A stretch of 64,000 nt of DNA, from contig JASCOH010000006.1 of the NCBI GenBank assembly GCA_029959295.1, positions 62,001 to 126,000 of the forward strand, given 5' to 3'. How positions within the stretch are numbered: position 1 is the stretch's first letter; every line of letters begins with the position of its first letter. Shown here in pieces: positions 30,252 to 57,409 of the stretch. The stretch is from Flavobacteriaceae bacterium PS02334. GTDB taxonomy: Bacteria > Bacteroidota > Bacteroidia > Flavobacteriales > Flavobacteriaceae. A program made the translations under genes and the position numbers. The notes beneath the pieces are model-generated. The model was not told the origin of the DNA and searched no databases. It worked only from the letters and a program-made list of their open reading frames with translations.

Positions 30252-33152
30252 ATGAAAAAAATTACTTTATTTTTATTATTTATTTCTTCTTTTGCCTGGG
30301 CACAGCAACAGACAGTTACTTATTCTGTTTCTCCAGCAACTTTTGAAGAAAATCAATCTGTTACGCTAACATTTAATGGAAGTAGCATAAATGAAGCTAC
30401 TTGGGGTGTAACAGGCAATGCTCTTTACTTGTGGTCGTGGTCCTTAGACGCAAACAATGTTTCACAAGATTGTCCAACTAACGGTACTTGGATAGCCTCA
30501 AATGAAACCAATAGGCTGGTATATTCAGCAGTGAATGATACTTATTCAATAACTTTTGTTCCTTCTACTTTTTATGCTAGAACGGGAATTGCTAGAATTG
30601 GATTTCTTATAAAAGCTAAAAATGCAACTGGAGACAAAAAATCACAAGACATTTTTGCTAACGTAGGTACTTTTCAGGTAAATCTGACAGCGCCACTACA
30701 AAATAGCACGACACTTATAGCTTCGGGCTCAAATTTTAGCATTTCCGCTACAAATACTGGAGGGAATGCATCATATGTTCTTAAAAGTAATGGCACCTTG
30801 CTCAATCAAAATACAAGTACAGCAAGTTATTCTTATACGCATACGAGTATTACTGCCAATCAGAATTATACATTAGACGTAACGCAAGGAGCAACAACAA
30901 TTTCAAAGTATTTCTCTGTAGTCGTAAATCCAGGAACTATAAGCGCTGCAATTCCAGCAGGATTAAATGATGGTGTGAATTACAATGTTTCTGATCCAAC
31001 AAGAGCTACTTTGGTGTTAAATGCTCCATTGAAAGACTTTGTATATGTTGCAGGAAGTTTTAACAACTGGTCTCCATCGGCGACTTATGCCATGAAAAAA
31101 GATCCCACTTCAGGGAAATTTTGGTTAGAGTTGACAGGCTTGACTTCAGGAACTTCTTATTCTTATCAATATTGGGTGGGCGATCAAACAAGCCGTCCGT
31201 CAAATTCACCTGCTTTGGTGAAAACGGCAGATCCTTTTTCAACATTGGTTCTGAGTCCTTTTGATGATCCAGAAATCCAAACTTTAGGTGTTTATCCAAA
31301 TTTGCCAGCTTTTCCTGTTGGCCAAGAAAGAGAAGTTTCGGTTTTGCAAACGGGGCCAAATGCTTATTATAATTACAATTGGAGCAATGCTACAACAAAT
31401 TTTGTAAAGCCAAACAAAAAAGATTTAGTGATCTATGAAGTTTTGGTAAGGGATTTTGATACAAATAAAACCTACCAGAATTTAATTGATAAAATTGATT
31501 ATTTTAAAAATCTTAAAATTAATGCAATTCAATTAATGCCTGTAATGGAGTTTGAAGGCAATGAAAGCTGGGGTTATAATACGGTGTATCACATGGCTTT
31601 AGACAAGAGATATGGTTCTGCAGCTAAGCTTAAAGAATTTATCGATTTGTGCCATCAAAATGGTATTGCAGTTATTCTTGACGTAGCGCTGAACCACGTT
31701 TTTGGGCGTTCACCATTAGAAAGAATGTGGATGCTTGATACTGATAACGATGGATGGGGAAATGGCGTTTCTTATGAAAATCCATATTGCAATGCAAGCG
31801 CAACGCACTCTTACAGCGTTGGAACCGACCTTAATCACTTCAACGAGCCTAACAATTTGACAGCATATTATGTTGAAAGAACAATCAAGCACTGGATGAA
31901 TGAATTCAAGATCGACGGTTTCCGTTGGGACTTGACCAAAGGTTTTACGCAAAACTGTCCTTACACGGGCAATGCTTCTACTCAAGATGCCTGTACAAAC
32001 AATTATCAAGCTGACCGTGTTGCAAAACTTAAATATTATGCAGATTTGCAATGGGCACAAGATCCAAATTTCTACGTAATTTTTGAACATCTTGGTACAG
32101 GTGGGTCAAACACTGAAGAAATTGAATGGGCAAATTACAGAAAAACAGGTGATGCCGACGGAATTTCAAAAGGCATCATGCAATGGAGAAAAATGACCGA
32201 TCCTTATGCTAATTTCTTAAAAGGAAATTTTGCTGACCTTAGTGGCGTAGCACATTCTTCAGACCGATTCATCGGTTATGCAGAAAGCCATGACGAAGAA
32301 AGAGTCATATATAAAGCATTGACTGAAACAGGGCAAACCAATGGAAATCTTCCAAAAGCAATGGCAAGAATGTCTGCCATGGGAGCGTTGCATTTATTGG
32401 TGCCTGGTCCAAAGATGATTTATCATTTTGGAGATTTAGGCTATGAAAGTTCTATTTTTACTTGCAATAATGGCACTGTGAATACACCTTCTGATGCAAC
32501 TGCTGGAGACTGCAAACTTGATACCAAGCCACAGCTTCAATGGACTAACAACTGGTTAGCAAATACGGCTCGTAGAAAAATATACGACGACTGGACAAAA
32601 ATGATCGACTTGAAAAAGAACGAAAATGTTTTTGAAAACGGAACGTATGCATGGAATTTCACGACAACAGGAAAACCAAGATTAGATGTTTGGACAAGTA
32701 CAACACAAAGTCCAAATTTGAGCTATGTTTTTGTCTTGAGTAATGCCACAAATGCAGTTTCAAACAGCGCCGGAGGCTTTCCTTACACAGGAACTTGGTA
32801 CAATTTAATGGATGGAACTTCAATCAATGTGACTGATGTAAATATGCCAGTTTCTATAGAAATAGATGGTTTCAGAGTTTTTGGTAACAAGCAAGCTTTA
32901 TTAAGCACAGGAAATTTCGAGTTTCCGTCAATTGCCTTGTATCCAAATCCTTCCAAAGGAAATTTCAATATCAGCACCAATACAAAACAAGTTTCAGTTT
33001 ATTCAGTCACAGGTCAATTAGTGAAAGAATTCAAAGGAACTTTCGATAGCAATTATCAATATGCAATCGACAATTTAAATCAAGGATTATACATCGTGAA
33101 AGTCGTAGACGAGCAAGATCGTGAAGCTACGCTGAAATTGATGAAACAATAA
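30252..33152 (+). CDS. T9SS-secreted multidomain alpha-amylase (GH13)
   Basis: Extracellular endo-acting starch hydrolase delivered by the type IX system. Signal peptide MKKITLFLLFISSFAWAQ; N-terminal beta module (~20-140) shared in outline with the small T9SS protein at 13193-13897; a second Ig-like region (~145-225); a CBM48/E-set-like module (~245-310, KDFVYVAGSFNNWSPSATY). The GH13 barrel runs ~390-830 with ALNHVFG, DGFRWDLTKG (nucleophile near 558), IFEHLG (Glu near 611) and AESHDEERV (Asp near 680). The C-terminal ~75 residues are a T9SS type A domain (YPNPSKGNFNI, then LYIVKVVDEQDREATLKLMKQ). A Cys-containing insert (CNNGTVNTPSDATAGDC) near 740 may form a disulfide. Confidence 0.93.
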   Translation: MKKITLFLLFISSFAWAQQQTVTYSVSPATFEENQSVTLTFNGSSINEATWGVTGNALYLWSWSLDANNVSQDCPTNGTWIASNETNRLVYSAVNDTYSITFVPSTFYARTGIARIGFLIKAKNATGDKKSQDIFANVGTFQVNLTAPLQNSTTLIASGSNFSISATNTGGNASYVLKSNGTLLNQNTSTASYSYTHTSITANQNYTLDVTQGATTISKYFSVVVNPGTISAAIPAGLNDGVNYNVSDPTRATLVLNAPLKDFVYVAGSFNNWSPSATYAMKKDPTSGKFWLELTGLTSGTSYSYQYWVGDQTSRPSNSPALVKTADPFSTLVLSPFDDPEIQTLGVYPNLPAFPVGQEREVSVLQTGPNAYYNYNWSNATTNFVKPNKKDLVIYEVLVRDFDTNKTYQNLIDKIDYFKNLKINAIQLMPVMEFEGNESWGYNTVYHMALDKRYGSAAKLKEFIDLCHQNGIAVILDVALNHVFGRSPLERMWMLDTDNDGWGNGVSYENPYCNASATHSYSVGTDLNHFNEPNNLTAYYVERTIKHWMNEFKIDGFRWDLTKGFTQNCPYTGNASTQDACTNNYQADRVAKLKYYADLQWAQDPNFYVIFEHLGTGGSNTEEIEWANYRKTGDADGISKGIMQWRKMTDPYANFLKGNFADLSGVAHSSDRFIGYAESHDEERVIYKALTETGQTNGNLPKAMARMSAMGALHLLVPGPKMIYHFGDLGYESSIFTCNNGTVNTPSDATAGDCKLDTKPQLQWTNNWLANTARRKIYDDWTKMIDLKKNENVFENGTYAWNFTTTGKPRLDVWTSTTQSPNLSYVFVLSNATNAVSNSAGGFPYTGTWYNLMDGTSINVTDVNMPVSIEIDGFRVFGNKQALLSTGNFEFPSIALYPNPSKGNFNISTNTKQVSVYSVTGQLVKEFKGTFDSNYQYAIDNLNQGLYIVKVVDEQDREATLKLMKQ

Positions 33153-39513: not shown

Positions 39514-42500
39514 ATGAAATTCATTAAACAAGAATCTATCGATGAAGTTCTGAGTGATGCTCAGGTACTTGATGCTGTCATATCCACAGAAGGTTCTGCG
39601 GCTGTTAAGCCAAAAGGCGTGTATTATTTTTGCTGTTCTCCTTTTACTAAAGAAACAACACCATCATTTTGCATAAAAAAAGTAGAGAACATTTTCTTTG
39701 ATTATTCCTCTGGATTTGGAGGAAATGCAGTTTCATTTTTAATGAAAAGGCTTAATATATCTTTTTTTGAAGCTGTCACGAAAGCGGCTGAAGCTTCAAA
39801 TATTGTTTTGAAATACGAAGATCAATCTGAAGATCAAAAACGCATTTATGATGAAATTTTAGCAATGAAAGGATTGGTTGAAACTGCGGCCGATCGTTAT
39901 CAGGCTAAGTTGCAATCTTTAGAGCCTGGTCATTGGGCTAAGCAAATGATTTCAGAAAGACAATTTACTGAAGATATTTTACATCTTTTTAAAGTCGGAT
40001 TCGCACCGAATGAGAGAAGTTTTATTTCAACTCCTGCAATTAATAATGGAAATTTTGAGATTGCTACTTCTTTAGGATTGACAACTACAAAGGATGGCTC
40101 CAGTTGGGATTTTTTTCGTGATAGGCTTATGTTTCCTATTCAAGATAGATCAGGCGTTATTGTCGGTTTTGGAGGTCGGAGAAACAATGATGAAGAAAAT
40201 GAGAAATATGCTAAATATCTGAATTCAAAGGAAAGTAAGGTTTATCTCAAGGAACGTCTTCTTTATGGATTATTCCAGGCTAAAAAGAATATCGCCGAAA
40301 AAAAATCTGCAGTTTTATTAGAAGGATATACAGATGTTATAGCTCTTCATCAGGGAGGGTTGACAAATTCTGTTGCAACTTCTGGAACTGCATTATCAAG
40401 CTATCACGTCAAAGAAATAGTGAAATTATGTCCGCATGTTATTTTATTTCGTGACGGCGATAAGGCGGGAATGAGGGCGGTTATGCGTGATATCGATATT
40501 TGTCTTGAGTATAATTTAAAAGTTTCACTTGTAATTTGTCCGGACGGAGAAGATCCAGACAGTTTATCCAGACAGTGTAATATTTCGGACTTTGTTTATA
40601 ATAATCTGGAAGATGCAATAAAATGGAAGGCAAAGACATTAGCTGAGGATGCTCGCAATTCTGAAATTGAAGAGTTGGGAAAAACTCTAAAATCTGAATA
40701 TGATCTTGAAGTTAAAAAATTAACTGAAGAGATGCTTCCTCCGGAGGCAATGGATAAACTTAATCCAATGGATAAAAAGTTTGCCAAAAAAGAAAATGAT
40801 CGTCTTTTTAAGCAAATTGGAGAATTAGAAAAAGAAATGAAATCTGCTTTAGCGGATTTGCCAAAATATGAGCCTGAAAAGATTTCTCAAGCCGTCGAGT
40901 CGATGGCAGAAACTCTTTTTAAAATTGGAAGTACTGTCAAACGTCAGGAATATTTAAAGATTGTTTCGAAGCAATTGGATGTCAAAATGCCAATTATTCA
41001 GCAAATTATTAGCCAAAAAGAAGTGAAAGCTGAAGCAGATAAAAAGAAGAGAAGTCTTGAGTCTGATAAAAAAGAAGTCCAGATTTTAGGATTGCCTGAA
41101 GGCGCTGACAAAGATCAATACCTTGAAGATAGATTTTGCGTAATCGGAAATGCTTACTATTTCCACAATGGTACTGGTTTTTTCAAAGGAACAAATCATA
41201 GAATTGAACCTCTTTTTCATATCGAAGGGAAAAGCGACAATAAAAGACTTTGTGAAATTATTAATGAGAAAGGCCACAAGCGATTGATTGATTTTGATTC
41301 GACTGATTTTATCAATTTCACAAAAATCAAGGAACGCTTAATCCAAGAGGGTTTTTTCTTCTGGGAACCAGGTTCTACTCCATCGCATTTTCAATTAGTG
41401 GCCAAGCGATTGCTGAACCATTTTATTACGGCCACAGAACTTAAGATTTTAGGCTTGCAACGTGAGGGTTTCTTTGCCTTTGCAAACGGTGTAGAACATG
41501 ATCGCCAATTCCATAAGGTTAATAAATATGGAATTGTAAATATTGAAGGATTAGAAAAAAAGGAAAGCGAATACCGCTCAGATATCACTCATTTTTATTC
41601 TCCGTCACATTCAGAAATTTATAACTCTGTTCGTGAAGATGATGATCCCTACGAAAATGATAGACACTTTGTCTATATGCCGGCTCCAGTTTCACTTGAT
41701 CAATGGATGAATCAAATGGTAAAAGTTTTCGGAGATAAGGGCAAAATGGGCATTGCTTTCACTTTGGCAATGAATTTTAGAGACTTGTTTCTTTCAAATT
41801 TTGATTATTTCCCATTGATGGGTGGTTTTGGGCAAAAAGATAGTGGAAAGTCAGGATTTGGAAATTGTCTGCAGGGATTTTTCTACTATGATTTGAAAGC
41901 TCTTGAATTAAACACGAGTACGCTTGTGGGATTGGCGCGCCGTCTGACTCGATGCAGAAATACGACTGTTTTTTGTGATGAATATCGTGACGATATCGAG
42001 GAATCATTGCACCAGACTCTCAAAGGTACATGGAATGGAATCGGCCGTGAAAAAGGTAAAGGATTTGAAACTAATAGAACTACAGTAGACAAAATTAATT
42101 CTGGAGTTTATTTTGCCGGCCAATACTTGCCAACTCGAGATGATGGCGCTTTGACTTCGAGAACTATTCCGCTGATTTTTGGAAACAAAGATCACACTGC
42201 AGATGAAAAAGAAGAATACGGAAAGCTTATTCAATGGAATAAATCCGGATTAAGTTCATTCGTATTGGATGTGATTAGGCACCGCAAAGATGTACAGAAA
42301 AATCTCGTGACAACTTATTCTGAGGTGGCAAGGGAATTGAAAGCTGCGCTTAAAGATTCTGAATTTCAAAATAGGGTATACGAAAATTATTTAGTGCTCC
42401 TGGTGACTGTGAAGCTTCTGGAGGAAAAATTCTCTTTTCCATTTACCTACAAAGATTTTTTTAATCAAATAAAAGAAGGAATTGTTGAAACTTCTGACAT

Positions 42501-42984
42501 GATAGCTGACTCTGACGGATTGGCGGCATTCTGGCAAATTATTTCATATCTGGCTGGTCCTGATCCAAAATCAAGAGCTATCTACCAAGGTGCTGATTAT
42601 ATGATTGAAACGCCTAGAACCTTTGTTTATGTGCCTAAAAAAGGCGAAAAGGAAACTTATAATAATAGCAAAGGCGACAAAATACTGTTCCTGAATTTTC
42701 AAAAAGTGCACCAAGACTACCATAAGGAAGTTTCTAAACGCCAGGGCGAAGAAGTTATCGGTGCCACAACAATCAGAAATTATTTAAAGACAAGAAAATA
42801 TTTCATTGGTCTTTTTGCTGCTAAAAGAATGGGAGATCGAACGCCAAGCGGTTACGCTTTTAATTATACGATGATGAAAAATATGGGCATTTTAGATCTT
42901 GACGATTTATCAGCAAGTCAAACATCAATGGATCTTCCAGGCCCTGAAACAAATGTTGAATTGCCAGACGGCTATAATAATTAA
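39514..42984 (+). CDS. Phage primase-helicase with DnaG-type Toprim and C-terminal P-loop helicase
   Basis: A 1156-residue replication protein. The N-terminus looks like a DnaG CHC2 zinc finger but lacks its ligands: VYYFCCSPFTKETTPSFCIKK then FFDYSSGFGGNAVSF, where the usual Cys, His, Cys, Cys are Ser, Thr, Asp and Ser. The Toprim domain (~262-350) is intact: LLEGYTDVIALHQGG, VATSGTAL, and FRDGDKAGMRA with the Asp-x-Asp. A coiled-coil linker follows (~370-500). The C-terminal ATPase has Walker A GQKDSGKSG near residue 772 and Walker B-like TVFCDEYRDD near 820. Such fusions prime and unwind at phage origins; a candidate origin lies at 48.8-49.2 kb. It is the largest gene in the prophage. Confidence 0.88.
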   Translation: MKFIKQESIDEVLSDAQVLDAVISTEGSAAVKPKGVYYFCCSPFTKETTPSFCIKKVENIFFDYSSGFGGNAVSFLMKRLNISFFEAVTKAAEASNIVLKYEDQSEDQKRIYDEILAMKGLVETAADRYQAKLQSLEPGHWAKQMISERQFTEDILHLFKVGFAPNERSFISTPAINNGNFEIATSLGLTTTKDGSSWDFFRDRLMFPIQDRSGVIVGFGGRRNNDEENEKYAKYLNSKESKVYLKERLLYGLFQAKKNIAEKKSAVLLEGYTDVIALHQGGLTNSVATSGTALSSYHVKEIVKLCPHVILFRDGDKAGMRAVMRDIDICLEYNLKVSLVICPDGEDPDSLSRQCNISDFVYNNLEDAIKWKAKTLAEDARNSEIEELGKTLKSEYDLEVKKLTEEMLPPEAMDKLNPMDKKFAKKENDRLFKQIGELEKEMKSALADLPKYEPEKISQAVESMAETLFKIGSTVKRQEYLKIVSKQLDVKMPIIQQIISQKEVKAEADKKKRSLESDKKEVQILGLPEGADKDQYLEDRFCVIGNAYYFHNGTGFFKGTNHRIEPLFHIEGKSDNKRLCEIINEKGHKRLIDFDSTDFINFTKIKERLIQEGFFFWEPGSTPSHFQLVAKRLLNHFITATELKILGLQREGFFAFANGVEHDRQFHKVNKYGIVNIEGLEKKESEYRSDITHFYSPSHSEIYNSVREDDDPYENDRHFVYMPAPVSLDQWMNQMVKVFGDKGKMGIAFTLAMNFRDLFLSNFDYFPLMGGFGQKDSGKSGFGNCLQGFFYYDLKALELNTSTLVGLARRLTRCRNTTVFCDEYRDDIEESLHQTLKGTWNGIGREKGKGFETNRTTVDKINSGVYFAGQYLPTRDDGALTSRTIPLIFGNKDHTADEKEEYGKLIQWNKSGLSSFVLDVIRHRKDVQKNLVTTYSEVARELKAALKDSEFQNRVYENYLVLLVTVKLLEEKFSFPFTYKDFFNQIKEGIVETSDMIADSDGLAAFWQIISYLAGPDPKSRAIYQGADYMIETPRTFVYVPKKGEKETYNNSKGDKILFLNFQKVHQDYHKEVSKRQGEEVIGATTIRNYLKTRKYFIGLFAAKRMGDRTPSGYAFNYTMMKNMGILDLDDLSASQTSMDLPGPETNVELPDGYNN

Positions 42985-48741: not shown

Positions 48742-48820
48742 TTCCACAATCCAATAATCAGCGCTAGCTGATTAATAAATAAAAAATAGCTCCTGTAAGG
48801 AGCGTTCATTATATTTTCAA

Positions 48821-48995
48821 CTTTTCCCCCGCGCCCCCAATTTAAAAGGAATATCGACAAAATGTTGAGCCGTTGAGCCGTTGAGCCTGATTCGCGTTAG
48901 CGAATCACTGCAAACTCTCCGGAGGAGAAACATATTAGTTCAAAATATCCAGGTTGTTTTTTTTCTTTTTCCCCCGCACCCCCAGTATAAAAAAG
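48821..48995 (+). repeat. Duplicated C-rich box
   Basis: CTTTTCCCCCGCGCCCCCA at 48821 recurs as CTTTTTCCCCCGCACCCCCA at 48965, each followed by an A/T-rich stretch and then a triplet of iterons (48864 and 49030). The pair looks like a duplicated unit of C-box plus iterons. Confidence 0.5.
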
Positions 48996-49261
48996 TATTT
49001 ACAAAAGCGAGTTGCGGAACTCTCAAAAAGGTTCAACAGGTTCAACGGTTCAACATTATTTTATAACTAATTAATATTTAAAATAATATACTTAATTATC
49101 TCAATTAAAATTTTGTTGAACTTGTTGAACCAAAATGTTAAGGTTCTAGCAAATCGGGCTGGGTTCAAACAGTTCAACGACACTTTTTTTTCTAAAATGC
49201 TGAAAATACGCTTGTTGACCTGTTGAACTTTTAATGTCTGAAAAAGTTATGTTAATTAGCA

Positions 49262-49269
49262 TATATTTG
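49262..49269 (+). promoter_or_regulatory. -7 element TATATTTG of the capsid operon
   Basis: Exact TAnnTTTG, 28 bases before the ATG at 49298. It is preceded by AAAAAGTTATGT, a 12-base word also found at 38265 in the immunity region. A late/structural promoter is likely. Confidence 0.55.
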
Positions 49270-49297: not shown

Positions 49298-49759
49298 ATG
49301 AGTCAAATAGCAATTGTTATTAAATTTCCGGTGCAAACTCACGTTTATAAATATCTGCAGCAAAAAGTAGGACCGTCAATGATGGTTTCCAGATCTAATT
49401 TTTTTGGAAATCTAGTACTTGATATTCTGTCAAAAAGAGAAAAAGCGGAAAAGGCGCCTTTAGGTACTATGGTATTTCCCGTGGAAATCCATGAAGATTA
49501 CATGAATAGGTTCGGATTCAACATAAGTCCGAATGTCATAAGAAAATTCAATCTTCAGGTAGATCGAATGTTCAAAGAAGAAATGTGTACTTATGTTAGT
49601 TTGACCTGCAGTCACAACCCGGTAAAAAAAACAGAGGCGCTTTCGCAATTCTTAAATTCTTTTGATATTTCTGAAGACGATATCAAGACAGAAACTTTAA
49701 TAAAATATATTTTTAGAAACGAGAAGGACAAAAAAACCTTTGGGCAAAATGTCCTGTAA
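49298..49759 (+). CDS. Phage protein of unknown function, first gene of the capsid operon
   Basis: A 153-residue basic protein: MSQIAIVIKFPVQTHVYKYLQQKVGPSMMVSRSNFFGNLVLDILSKREKAEK, then FNISPNVIRKFNLQVDRMFKEEMCTYV and a helical tail with EALSQFLNSFDISEDDIKTETLIKYIFRNEKDKK. The small basic helical fold and the position right after the iterons would suit a DNA-binding protein, even an iteron binder. No domain is recognised, so this is inference. A promoter lies just upstream. Confidence 0.6.
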   Translation: MSQIAIVIKFPVQTHVYKYLQQKVGPSMMVSRSNFFGNLVLDILSKREKAEKAPLGTMVFPVEIHEDYMNRFGFNISPNVIRKFNLQVDRMFKEEMCTYVSLTCSHNPVKKTEALSQFLNSFDISEDDIKTETLIKYIFRNEKDKKTFGQNVL

Positions 49760-54583: not shown

Positions 54584-55330
54584 ATGGATATTCAATCATG
54601 GTTTGAAAATAACGGTAATTATTCTGACGGTCTTGAGCTATTTGCTCAATTGCCTAATTGCAATAAAATTCAGTTAAGAAATTTTGCTCGAGAAAACACT
54701 TCCAATTTTATAAAATTGAAATATGAGCTGAAAAAGGCTTTGATGGCAGGAATTGGAGAAAGTATTCAGGAAAAAATTTTAGAGCCTGCAGTGCCTCAAA
54801 AACCATTTGAAAACAAACCGGAGCCATTACTTCAGCTAATCATAAAACAATCTGCTGATCAATCTTTCGAAAAAGAAACGATGGCGATTTATCCTATGGA
54901 ACTGCATGAGACATACCGCAAGCGTGTGTCAAATTTTTATAAAGCTTGCGAATTGAAATTCCAACTCAATTCTTTACCTGAAGGCGACGAAAATACCGCC
55001 TTGAAAATAATTCTCCAACTCGAAGATTTGTGGACCAGAATCGACTGTGCTTGGATGATACTTGATCATTGGAAAGATCATAAGCGGATAATGCCTGTGA
55101 ATGAAAGCGAGGACTTCACAAAGCTTACTCCGATTCAACTGCTGATGAAACGCAATCAGCTTGAGTCGAGAATAAGTAAAAGAAAAGTCACGATTAAATC
55201 AATGACGGCCGAAGTGGAAGCTTCTCCAGAGAATCGCACGATTTCTAATTTGCTAAATCGAAAGCTCGAGCAATTGCATCAGCTAAACATCGATTTAGAA
55301 ACAATTAGAAATTTATTAAAAAATGAGTGA
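54584..55330 (+). CDS. Phage protein of unknown function, coiled-coil rich
   Basis: A 248-residue, charged, helical protein: MDIQSWFENNGNYSDGLELFAQLPNCNKIQLRNFARENTSNFIKLKYELKKALMAG, a MELHETYRKRVSNFYKACELKF segment, and a coiled-coil C-terminus with LLMKRNQLESRISKRKVTIKSMTAEVE and LNIDLETIRNLLKNE. It overlaps the methyltransferase gene by eight bases, so the two are coupled. No family recognised. Confidence 0.6.
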   Translation: MDIQSWFENNGNYSDGLELFAQLPNCNKIQLRNFARENTSNFIKLKYELKKALMAGIGESIQEKILEPAVPQKPFENKPEPLLQLIIKQSADQSFEKETMAIYPMELHETYRKRVSNFYKACELKFQLNSLPEGDENTALKIILQLEDLWTRIDCAWMILDHWKDHKRIMPVNESEDFTKLTPIQLLMKRNQLESRISKRKVTIKSMTAEVEASPENRTISNLLNRKLEQLHQLNIDLETIRNLLKNE

Positions 55331-56651
55331 TTTATTATCTCCGCTAGAATGGTCAACAGAAAAAAGAAGAGTTCGCGATTTAATTCCTTATGAATATAAT
55401 CCCCGGATTTTATCTGAAGACAAAAAGCAAAAACTTCGCGAAAGTCTTGAAAAATTCAATCTTGCAGAAATTCCTGCAGTAAATACAAACAACATAATTA
55501 TTGCCGGTCATCAGCGAATTGTCGTCATGATGGAAATCGGGCGCGGTGATGATTTGATAGATGTTCGCGTTCCTAATCGTGAGCTCACAGAATCTGAATT
55601 TAAAGAATATAATATCCGGTCCAATGTTTCAGTTGGAGAATGGGATTTAGATATTTTAAATGCAATTTTTACAGATATAGATCTTTTATCTCTTGGTTTG
55701 AATACTGATGATATTCCATTACCTGGAGATAATATTCCCGATCATTTAAAATCGGAATCTGAATCCGATTTTAACCCAGAACTGCCTGCAGAACCTATTT
55801 CGGTTTTGGGAGATATCTATGAGTTTAGATCGCTTCAAAAAAAATTAACTCACAGGTTAATTTGTGGTGACAGCACGTCTGCTGAAGTTTACAAATTGCT
55901 TTTGAATGGCGAATTTTTCAATCTGATCGTAACGGATCCGCCTTATAATATCAATTATGAAGGCGGTACAAAAGACAAGCTAAAAATTATGAATGATAAT
56001 ATGTCTTCAGATGATTTTTATATTTTCCTATTTAATTTTTACGCTGAGTGCTTTGCGCATGCGACGCCTGGTGCGGCGATTTATGTTTTTCATGCCGATA
56101 CTGAGGGTGTGAATTTCCGAAAAGCATTGAAGGATGCCGGATTCAAGCTTTCACAATGCTTAATCTGGCTAAAAAATTCGATTGTGATGGGCCGTCAAGA
56201 TTATCAATGGAAACATGAGCCATGCTTAATGGGTAAAGTTCCTGAAGATTCTGAAGAAATTAAACATCATGATCCGGTTCTTTACGGATGGAAAGAAGGA
56301 GCGGCTCATTCCTGGTACTCTGATCGTAAGCAAACCACAATTTTAGAATTTGCCAGACCTTATCGAAGCAAGGAACATCCGACAATGAAACCTTTGGATA
56401 TGCTCGTTTATCTTATAAAAAACAGCTCAAAACAAATGCAGATTGTTGGTGATAGTTTCTCCGGTTCTGGTTCAACTCTGATCGCCTGCGAGCAATCTTG
56501 GCGACAAGCTCGAGTAATTGAATTAGATCCGAGATTCGTAGACGTGAATGTAAGGCGATGGATTTCTTATATGCGAGAAAATAACTTGCAATTCGAGGTT
56601 TATAAGAATGATGTTTTATTGACGGCTGATCAAATCGAAAAATATTTTTGA
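55323..56651 (+). CDS. ParB-like/DNA methyltransferase fusion
   Basis: A 442-residue DNA modification enzyme. The N-terminal ~110 residues are ParB-like: VRDLIPYEYNPRILSEDKKQKLRESLEKFNLAEIPAVN, then NIIIAGHQRIVVMM. The catalytic domain has motif IV DPPYNI at residues 205-210 and the SAM-binding motif I DSFSGSGST at 377-385. This order (IV before I) marks the beta class of N6-adenine or N4-cytosine methyltransferases. HPTMKPLDMLVYLI is another conserved segment. No partner endonuclease is nearby, so it is probably an orphan phage enzyme that marks DNA or blocks restriction. The target is unknown. Confidence 0.9.
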   Translation: MSDLLSPLEWSTEKRRVRDLIPYEYNPRILSEDKKQKLRESLEKFNLAEIPAVNTNNIIIAGHQRIVVMMEIGRGDDLIDVRVPNRELTESEFKEYNIRSNVSVGEWDLDILNAIFTDIDLLSLGLNTDDIPLPGDNIPDHLKSESESDFNPELPAEPISVLGDIYEFRSLQKKLTHRLICGDSTSAEVYKLLLNGEFFNLIVTDPPYNINYEGGTKDKLKIMNDNMSSDDFYIFLFNFYAECFAHATPGAAIYVFHADTEGVNFRKALKDAGFKLSQCLIWLKNSIVMGRQDYQWKHEPCLMGKVPEDSEEIKHHDPVLYGWKEGAAHSWYSDRKQTTILEFARPYRSKEHPTMKPLDMLVYLIKNSSKQMQIVGDSFSGSGSTLIACEQSWRQARVIELDPRFVDVNVRRWISYMRENNLQFEVYKNDVLLTADQIEKYF

Positions 56652-57001: not shown

Positions 57002-57409
57002 ATGGAAAATAAAGTAAATATCGAAATCCGGTTTTCGGGTAATAATTTTGGTGCTTATGTTCCGGCATTGCCTGGATGTGTAGCGACTGGAGATACGCCT
57101 AATGAAATCATGCAGAATATTAAAGAAGCTATCGATTTTCATGTGGAAAGTAGCATTGAAGATAACGATCCTATCGATGATGTTTTTAAAGGGCAATATG
57201 ATTTGGTGGTGAAATTTGATACAGTTTCTTTGTTGAATTATTACAAAGGGATCTTTTCTAACGCTGCCTTACATCGCATTACTGGTATCAACGAAAAGCA
57301 ATTACAGCATTATTCTTCAGGATTGAAAAAACCGCGTCCAGCTCAAAGAGAAAAAATTGAGACAGGACTTCATAAGCTAGGCAAGGAACTCCTTGCAGTA
57401 GAACTATAG
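57002..57409 (+). CDS. hicB: HicB-type antitoxin with C-terminal HTH
   Basis: A 135-residue antitoxin. The N-terminal HicB domain (~1-70) reads VNIEIRFSGNNFGAYVPALPGCVATGDTPNEIMQNIKEAIDFHVESSIED, with the LPGCVATGDT segment typical of the family. The C-terminal HTH (~85-130) is LHRITGINEKQLQHYSSGLKKPRPAQREKIETGLHKL. It binds HicA and probably represses the hicAB promoter at the GGTAG/CTACC palindrome. The 77-bp gap to hicA is longer than usual. A terminator follows. Confidence 0.9.
   Translation: MENKVNIEIRFSGNNFGAYVPALPGCVATGDTPNEIMQNIKEAIDFHVESSIEDNDPIDDVFKGQYDLVVKFDTVSLLNYYKGIFSNAALHRITGINEKQLQHYSSGLKKPRPAQREKIETGLHKLGKELLAVEL

Follow-up and report, generated by a model that had tools for sequence, protein, structure and literature searches.

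The origin of SaPIbov1 is composed of two iteron sets that face oppositely around an AT-rich stretch. In P4, the alpha protein combines an archaeo-eukaryotic primase and a helicase in one protein, and short iterons lie near AT-rich DNA. Iteron plasmids and lambda-type origins possess longer iterons and are read by Rep or O initiators. As described in PMC7581432, SaPI Rep and the SCCmec proteins Cch and Cch2 are helicases that read several short repeats, Cch is related to SaPIbov1 Rep, and the SaPI origin is positioned right behind the helicase gene.

The window, which is the whole 64,000-nucleotide stretch analyzed here, carries a tailed prophage in its right part, with an S49 head protease, a ParB-domain methyltransferase, a terminase match, and a primase-helicase. 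This prophage encodes its own terminase (PHROG E 2.4e-12) and a head protease and has a weak match to a portal protein, so that it does not have the make-up of a helper-dependent satellite. In the host part of the window, 30252-33152 encodes a protein that combines an alpha-amylase domain with a Por secretion tail. Judging by how large and widespread the related group is, the host is probably a Flavobacterium or a near relative. A cluster of iterons sits between the early genes of the prophage and its first late gene (49298). From sequence comparison, we consider it highly likely that the segment 48826-49269 is the prophage replication origin and is read by the helicase half of the primase-helicase. 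Its mechanism would very probably be that of SaPI Rep/ori, a known class, in a new form carried by a full phage.

The first-pass annotation had likened the locus to P4. The two have in common primase and helicase parts in one protein and iterons near AT-rich DNA, but P4 was rejected as the nearest model. The window primase is composed of a CHC2 zinc finger, DNAG_N, and TOPRIM and is not of the archaeo-eukaryotic type; the likeness to P4 alpha therefore fails at the primase end, where the DnaG zinc finger and TOPRIM are found instead. With a DnaG-type primase and a helicase half that matches PDB 5dgk, which we take to be the SCCmec helicase Cch, the locus is better modeled on SaPI Rep/ori.

Architecture of the probable origin segment

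The features of the prophage to which the text refers are as follows.

39514-42984, + strand: primase-helicase of 1156 aa, the proposed initiator (CHC2/TOPRIM domains, P-loop)
48826-48838, + strand: C-rich box 1, CCCCCGCGCCCCC, one of two CCCCCGCRCCCCC matches in the genome
48864-48887, + strand: iteron group 1, three GTTGAGCC (sites 48864, 48872, 48880)
48971-48983, + strand: C-rich box 2, CCCCCGCACCCCC, its start 59 bp ahead of that of iteron group 2
49030-49054, - strand: iteron group 2, three GTTGAACC (sites 49030, 49039, 49047)
49055-49114, no strand: AT-rich core, the proposed strand-opening site (27 A, 29 T, 4 C, 0 G)
49115-49131, + strand: iteron group 3, GTTGAACT at 49115 and GTTGAACC at 49124
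49162-49178, - strand: iteron group 4, TTTGAACC at 49162 and GTTGAACT at 49171
49214-49229, + strand: iteron group 5, GTTGACCT at 49214 and GTTGAACT at 49222
49262-49269, + strand: Bacteroidota -7 element TATATTTG (consensus TAnnTTTG), the probable late-operon promoter
49298-49759, + strand: 153-aa protein, first late-operon gene, an origin neighbor and not a likely reader (S49 protease and capsid-type genes next)

Twelve 8-bp sites are arranged as three forward, three reverse, the 60-bp AT core, two forward, two reverse, and two forward, and within each group the sites are 8 or 9 bases apart. A listing of the sites bears out the number, group positions, and spacing that had been read from the sequence, and the base counts of the core agree with the four C and no G claimed for it. 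The description of the sites as twelve copies of one 8-bp word is correct as to their number and too strict as to the word, since only four of the twelve are exactly GTTGAACC; seven have one mismatch and one has two. On both strands together, GTTGARC occurs 10 times in 370 bp, and 200 first-order Markov versions of the whole window, used as the chance control, never had more than 3 copies per 370 bp. The tandem pattern GTTGARC-N1-2-GTTGARC has five matches in the 4.59-Mb genome, and all five are in this cluster (the reversed-pattern control had two matches). In the window, L002, and L003, GC skew does not durably switch sign at the cluster, which counts against an origin; blastn of the segment against phages returned no match. 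A perfect 7-bp inverted repeat, GATTCGC-gtta-GCGAATC, is found at 48889-48906, immediately 3' of iteron group 1.

The two C-rich boxes are the only genome matches to CCCCCGCRCCCCC, for which the reversed-pattern control had one match. Each is contained in a copy of a 39-nt direct repeat (77%) at 48809-48847 and 48954-48992, 145 bp apart. Each repeat copy is then followed by an iteron triplet, and the two triplets are in opposite orientation.

Repeat clusters and C-rich boxes in relatives

The first-pass annotation suggested a search for such clusters near homologous primase-helicases, and clusters, though of changing words, are present at most of them. A primase alignment scan matched 220 stretches, and the best 80 of 220 were kept. 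With near-duplicates removed, all 78 representatives were used, three of which are without downstream sequence. The places in which a cluster was to be counted were preset as directly behind the primase gene or directly before the 49298-type gene. In these places, at least six copies of some 7-mer are found in 61 of the 75 non-redundant primase loci, the window included, and in 0/1500 shuffles of the same windows, which reached five copies in 16/1500. Other windows of these loci had at least six copies in 10/750. Among loci obtained via the primase, and not via the word or the box, a cluster of at least six copies is present in 53 of 66. A larger set of 106 loci is redundant and was assembled in part through the box or the word; in 78 of these loci the top cluster is found either downstream of the primase or upstream of the 49298 homologue, and 530 shuffles reached no more than five copies.

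A cluster in the preset places is missing from 14 of the 75 loci. In some of these, such as L172, L190, and L242, the cluster lies elsewhere between the genes, and the contig of L183 carries one in a separate part, L074. No convincing cluster was found in the sequence examined for L208, L236, L249, and L253. Ahead of 49298 homologues, clusters of the same build but with other words are found in L051, L074, L115, L116, and L121.

Further comparisons were made on 64 loci, and counts of 64 refer to loci selected for having a cluster or a usable word. These tables start from the 78 representatives; L183, L249, L253, L230, L208, L236, L123, L216, and L189 were left out by hand, and primases below 900 aa and loci with fewer than five copies, except L193 and L002, were also dropped. 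In 32 of the 64 (type A), the chosen cluster precedes the 49298 homologue; in 25 (type B) it follows the primase stop by at most 800 bp, a few clusters being close to both genes, and in 7 it is elsewhere. Same-facing neighbors within 30 bp of each other are 8-12 bp apart in 207 of 261 cases. Sites flanking the AT peak point opposite ways in 57 of the 64 selected loci, as do the iteron sets around AT-rich DNA in the window and in SaPIbov1, and in 42 of them the AT peak ranks among the highest 5% of spans drawn at random from its own locus.

The layout is conserved in position and form and is linked to the helicase gene, and the word differs from lineage to lineage. Most of the words can be aligned in a shared frame close to TGTNGGAAC, and those of other relatives include GTGGAAC, TGTAGGAA, and GTTGGAAC. 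L179 has the window's layout of 3+, 3-, AT, 2+, 2-, 2+, built from the word GTGGAAC, and L051 has nearly the same layout, built from GTTGAAC. The nearest primase in the window's genus (G629, L393) has 66% identity over the last 740 residues, and seven copies of a different word, GTGGAAC, lie 5.3 kb behind it.

The C-rich box is, as judged from these loci, a second conserved element of the putative origin, and it was absent from the features first annotated. Of the 64 selected loci, the window included, 34 have a strict C5-N2/3-C5 box at most 250 bp from the first iteron; elsewhere in 1.18 Mb it occurs twice. By type, it is found in 26/32 type A loci, 3/25 type B loci, and 5/7 others, and 26 of 38 C-boxes start 60-86 bp ahead of the first iteron. 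Because type B loci are mostly without it, the box is predicted not to be essential to the helicase. A scan with the C-rich 16-mer TTTCCCCCGCACCCCC returned 50 stretches, 49 of them new. Family genes are present in 15 of these 49 (L142 by an S49 match only), and 12 of the 15, L142 included, have a cluster of at least five copies no more than 500 bp from the box. Among GCA-box loci without family genes, 12/34 have a cluster of at least five copies, and their builds are not all alike. The GCA-spacer box is accompanied by a cluster of at least six copies in 18/49. A GTA-spacer C-box was also tried as a predictor of clusters in a fresh scan and was rejected, with at least six copies in 3/49 versus 4/60 for the reversed control; the four cluster loci of that control have one repeat word in common. 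A literature search found no description of the C-rich box, and its 13-mer core had one unrelated match.

In high-GC phage contigs, TTTCCCCCGCACCCCC is also found beside other repeat words. These occurrences lie near a D5_N helicase gene (L127 2858, L170 5785), a TOPRIM protein (L166 8524), an integrase and a serine recombinase (L139 10411, L141 3884), and a serine recombinase (L134 5474).

The probable late promoter and the likely reader of the words

According to PMC6847099, TAnnTTTG is the consensus of the Bacteroidota -7 element. Such an element abuts the last iterons of the window, and this probable late-type promoter is an addition to the features first annotated. Across relatives, TAnnTTTG occurs at most 110 bp after the last iteron in 17/34 type-A rows (16/33 without the duplicate; L051 and L161 were added for this count, and L161 and L179 are one contig), where mononucleotide shuffles give an expectation of 2.8/34. 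The distance is 32-33 bp in eight rows (seven distinct loci), which are the window and its closest relatives, and varies in the others. The origin of the window's type therefore appears to adjoin the late promoter. The late block that follows includes a DNA methyltransferase whose N-terminal part is ParB-like (55323-56651, PHROG matches) and a protein with a HicB-like antitoxin domain (57002-57409).

The 16 of 33 distinct type-A loci, and the structural block opened by the gene after the promoter element, would also fit a cluster that is only a late-operon operator or enhancer, whose words are bound by a phage regulator controlling the promoter at 49262. We consider this very unlikely. The cluster lies behind the primase gene in 25/64 loci, and 0/25 of these type-B rows have such a promoter element after the last iteron. 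Clusters are also present at four stand-alone helicase loci, for which no 49298 homologue was found in the stretches examined. Moreover, four loci of 16-18 kb each (L117-L120) have late genes and a 49298 homologue, no such primase was found in them, and a cluster is present in 0/4. Three of them encode proteins of ~550-600 aa (L117 2043-3737, L119 1608-3269, L118 13241-15052), without a PHROG match in all three or a Pfam match in L117 and L119; these are possibly another kind of initiator.

The stand-alone helicases bear on which protein reads the words. They are 627-643 aa in length, are encoded in the window's genus, and have clusters directly behind their genes, with 10 copies in L395, 8 in L396, 10 in L397, and 5 in L399; L395-L397 are similar elements of one genus and not independent, and the five copies of L399 are sometimes reached by shuffles. 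In three of the four, the cluster begins 27 bp past the last codon. A Pfam scan of the helicases from L395, L396, and L399 found no domain, and therefore no recognizable primase part. By primase profile, a short separate primase frame is seen in L395, L397, and L399, in a SaPI-like order, and CHC2 and TOPRIM domains are present in that of L395. Because four stand-alone helicases (one weakly) have clusters right behind them, the words are probably read by the helicase half.

In the first-pass annotation, a small adjacent protein was the other candidate reader. The product of 48403 or 49298 would then be the initiator, with the primase-helicase loaded afterwards. Both genes are adjacent to the cluster, and in 32/64 loci the cluster stands before a 49298 homologue, but 48403 has a tblastn relative in only 1/400 loci, most type-B loci have the 49298 homologue kilobases off or not found, and the four loci with a 49298 homologue and no such primase found are those without a cluster. 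Similarity in the word also tracks the primase more closely than it tracks the 49298 homologue, the S49 protein, or the capsid protein (partial rho 0.27, 0.28, and 0.38 for the primase vs 0.13, 0.20, and 0.02, respectively), in a correlation that is weak and from which relatedness is only partly removed. It is thus very unlikely that a small neighbor is the initiator, and the comparative evidence, from the 61/75 loci to the stand-alone helicases, favors the claim of a phage origin recognized by the primase-helicase.

Partition sites are typically clusters of short sites. The words might accordingly be a parS-like partition site, or a packaging site, with another reader, such as the methyltransferase of 55323-56651 and its ParB-like part. 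Relatives of this methyltransferase are present in L118 and L119, which yet have no cluster, and were found by tblastn in 23/400 loci (many of them too short to contain it) versus clusters in 61/75. AT-rich DNA between inverted groups is, moreover, a trait of origins. We regard a partition or packaging site as very improbable.

Within the primase-helicase, the CHC2 zinc finger spans aa 5-103, the DnaG core (DNAG_N) 130-257, and TOPRIM 267-350, and the helicase part has a P-loop around aa 773-779. A Pfam scan of the window protein alone gave no helicase match, and single-protein scans found nothing. A family profile of the helicase half matched PDB 5dgk (table name "Active helicase") with E values of 1.1e-9 and 1.4e-9. 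DUF927 is found in 2/15 family members (best E 9.7e-5); the window protein lacks it. The region that follows the AAA+ domain, approximately aa 975-1156, is proposed as the iteron binder. In nearest-neighbor prediction of the word, aa 1101-1150 is the best of the 50-aa windows, at 0.689 versus 0.665 for the whole protein; by partial rho, some N-terminal primase windows reach 0.19 versus 0.22 for the best C-terminal one. A residue scan for word-reading positions gave a best column of 0.83 versus at most 0.60 in 30 label permutations. It was left unused because its top columns are mostly in a poorly aligned stretch (aa ~394-491) or at the extreme end.

Proposed initiation and its relation to described origins

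The primase-helicase would use its helicase half, probably the part behind the AAA+ domain, to bind the 8-9-bp words, and would assemble on the oppositely facing groups at both sides of the AT core. It may then open the core and load itself, one helicase per direction, and its own TOPRIM domain would lay the primers. Since the last iteron pair is directly upstream of the late promoter, initiator occupancy there could also influence late transcription.

Like SaPI Rep, with Cch and Cch2, the proposed initiator would be a helicase reading several short repeats. The initiator class is alike, and the family resembles Cch/DUF927. Unlike in SaPIs, the helicase shares one polypeptide with a DnaG-type primase and belongs to a full tailed phage, and the window origin lies beside a late promoter and has the C-rich box in addition. 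The SaPI position right behind the helicase gene is that of the 25 type B clusters and of the clusters at all four stand-alone helicases, one weakly. In the window, however, the cluster is 6 kb behind the initiator gene, and this distance counts against an origin. Iteron plasmids and lambda-type origins are alike in having direct repeats and AT-rich DNA, but differ in iteron length and initiators, and no iteron-plasmid Rep or lambda-type O initiator was found when the window's genes were scanned against Pfam and PHROG.

Among the phages of the collection, the best matches of the primase-helicase are in Cellulophaga phage Ingeline (34% identity) and the Porphyromonas gingivalis phages (about 27-28%). 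By eye, Ingeline (Duneviridae) and a P. gingivalis phage have the same layout with a C-rich box, at about 22,570-22,840 in L002 and about 9,815-10,215 in L003. Their words differ from that of the window (GTTCCACA/GTTCCAACA; TGTAGGACG), and the exact 7-mer cluster test misses Ingeline. The feature tables of Ingeline and the P. gingivalis phage name no origin among the features listed (49/50 and 44/70). In a term search, the main text of the Ingeline paper (PMC8776804) contained none of the terms "iteron," "origin of replication," and "replication origin." A literature search across titles and the beginnings of abstracts, with few subscription papers, found no description of this origin in Bacteroidota phages, which is weak evidence of absence.

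Taken together, it is possible, and we suggest it only tentatively, that these loci form an undescribed class of origins in Bacteroidota phages and related islands. One helicase family would read a fast-changing word in a fixed, TGTNGGAAC-like frame, as a natural recognition code. The C-box (C5-GCA-C5) would be a dedicated second element, perhaps a template signal for the first primer of the TOPRIM primase, and the last iterons on the late promoter would couple initiator occupancy to the late switch.

With this segment, a large group of Bacteroidota phages, to which the isolated phage Ingeline belongs, gains a concrete candidate origin. With dozens of natural pairs of word and initiator, the choice of origin by self-loading helicases would become testable via cross-binding.
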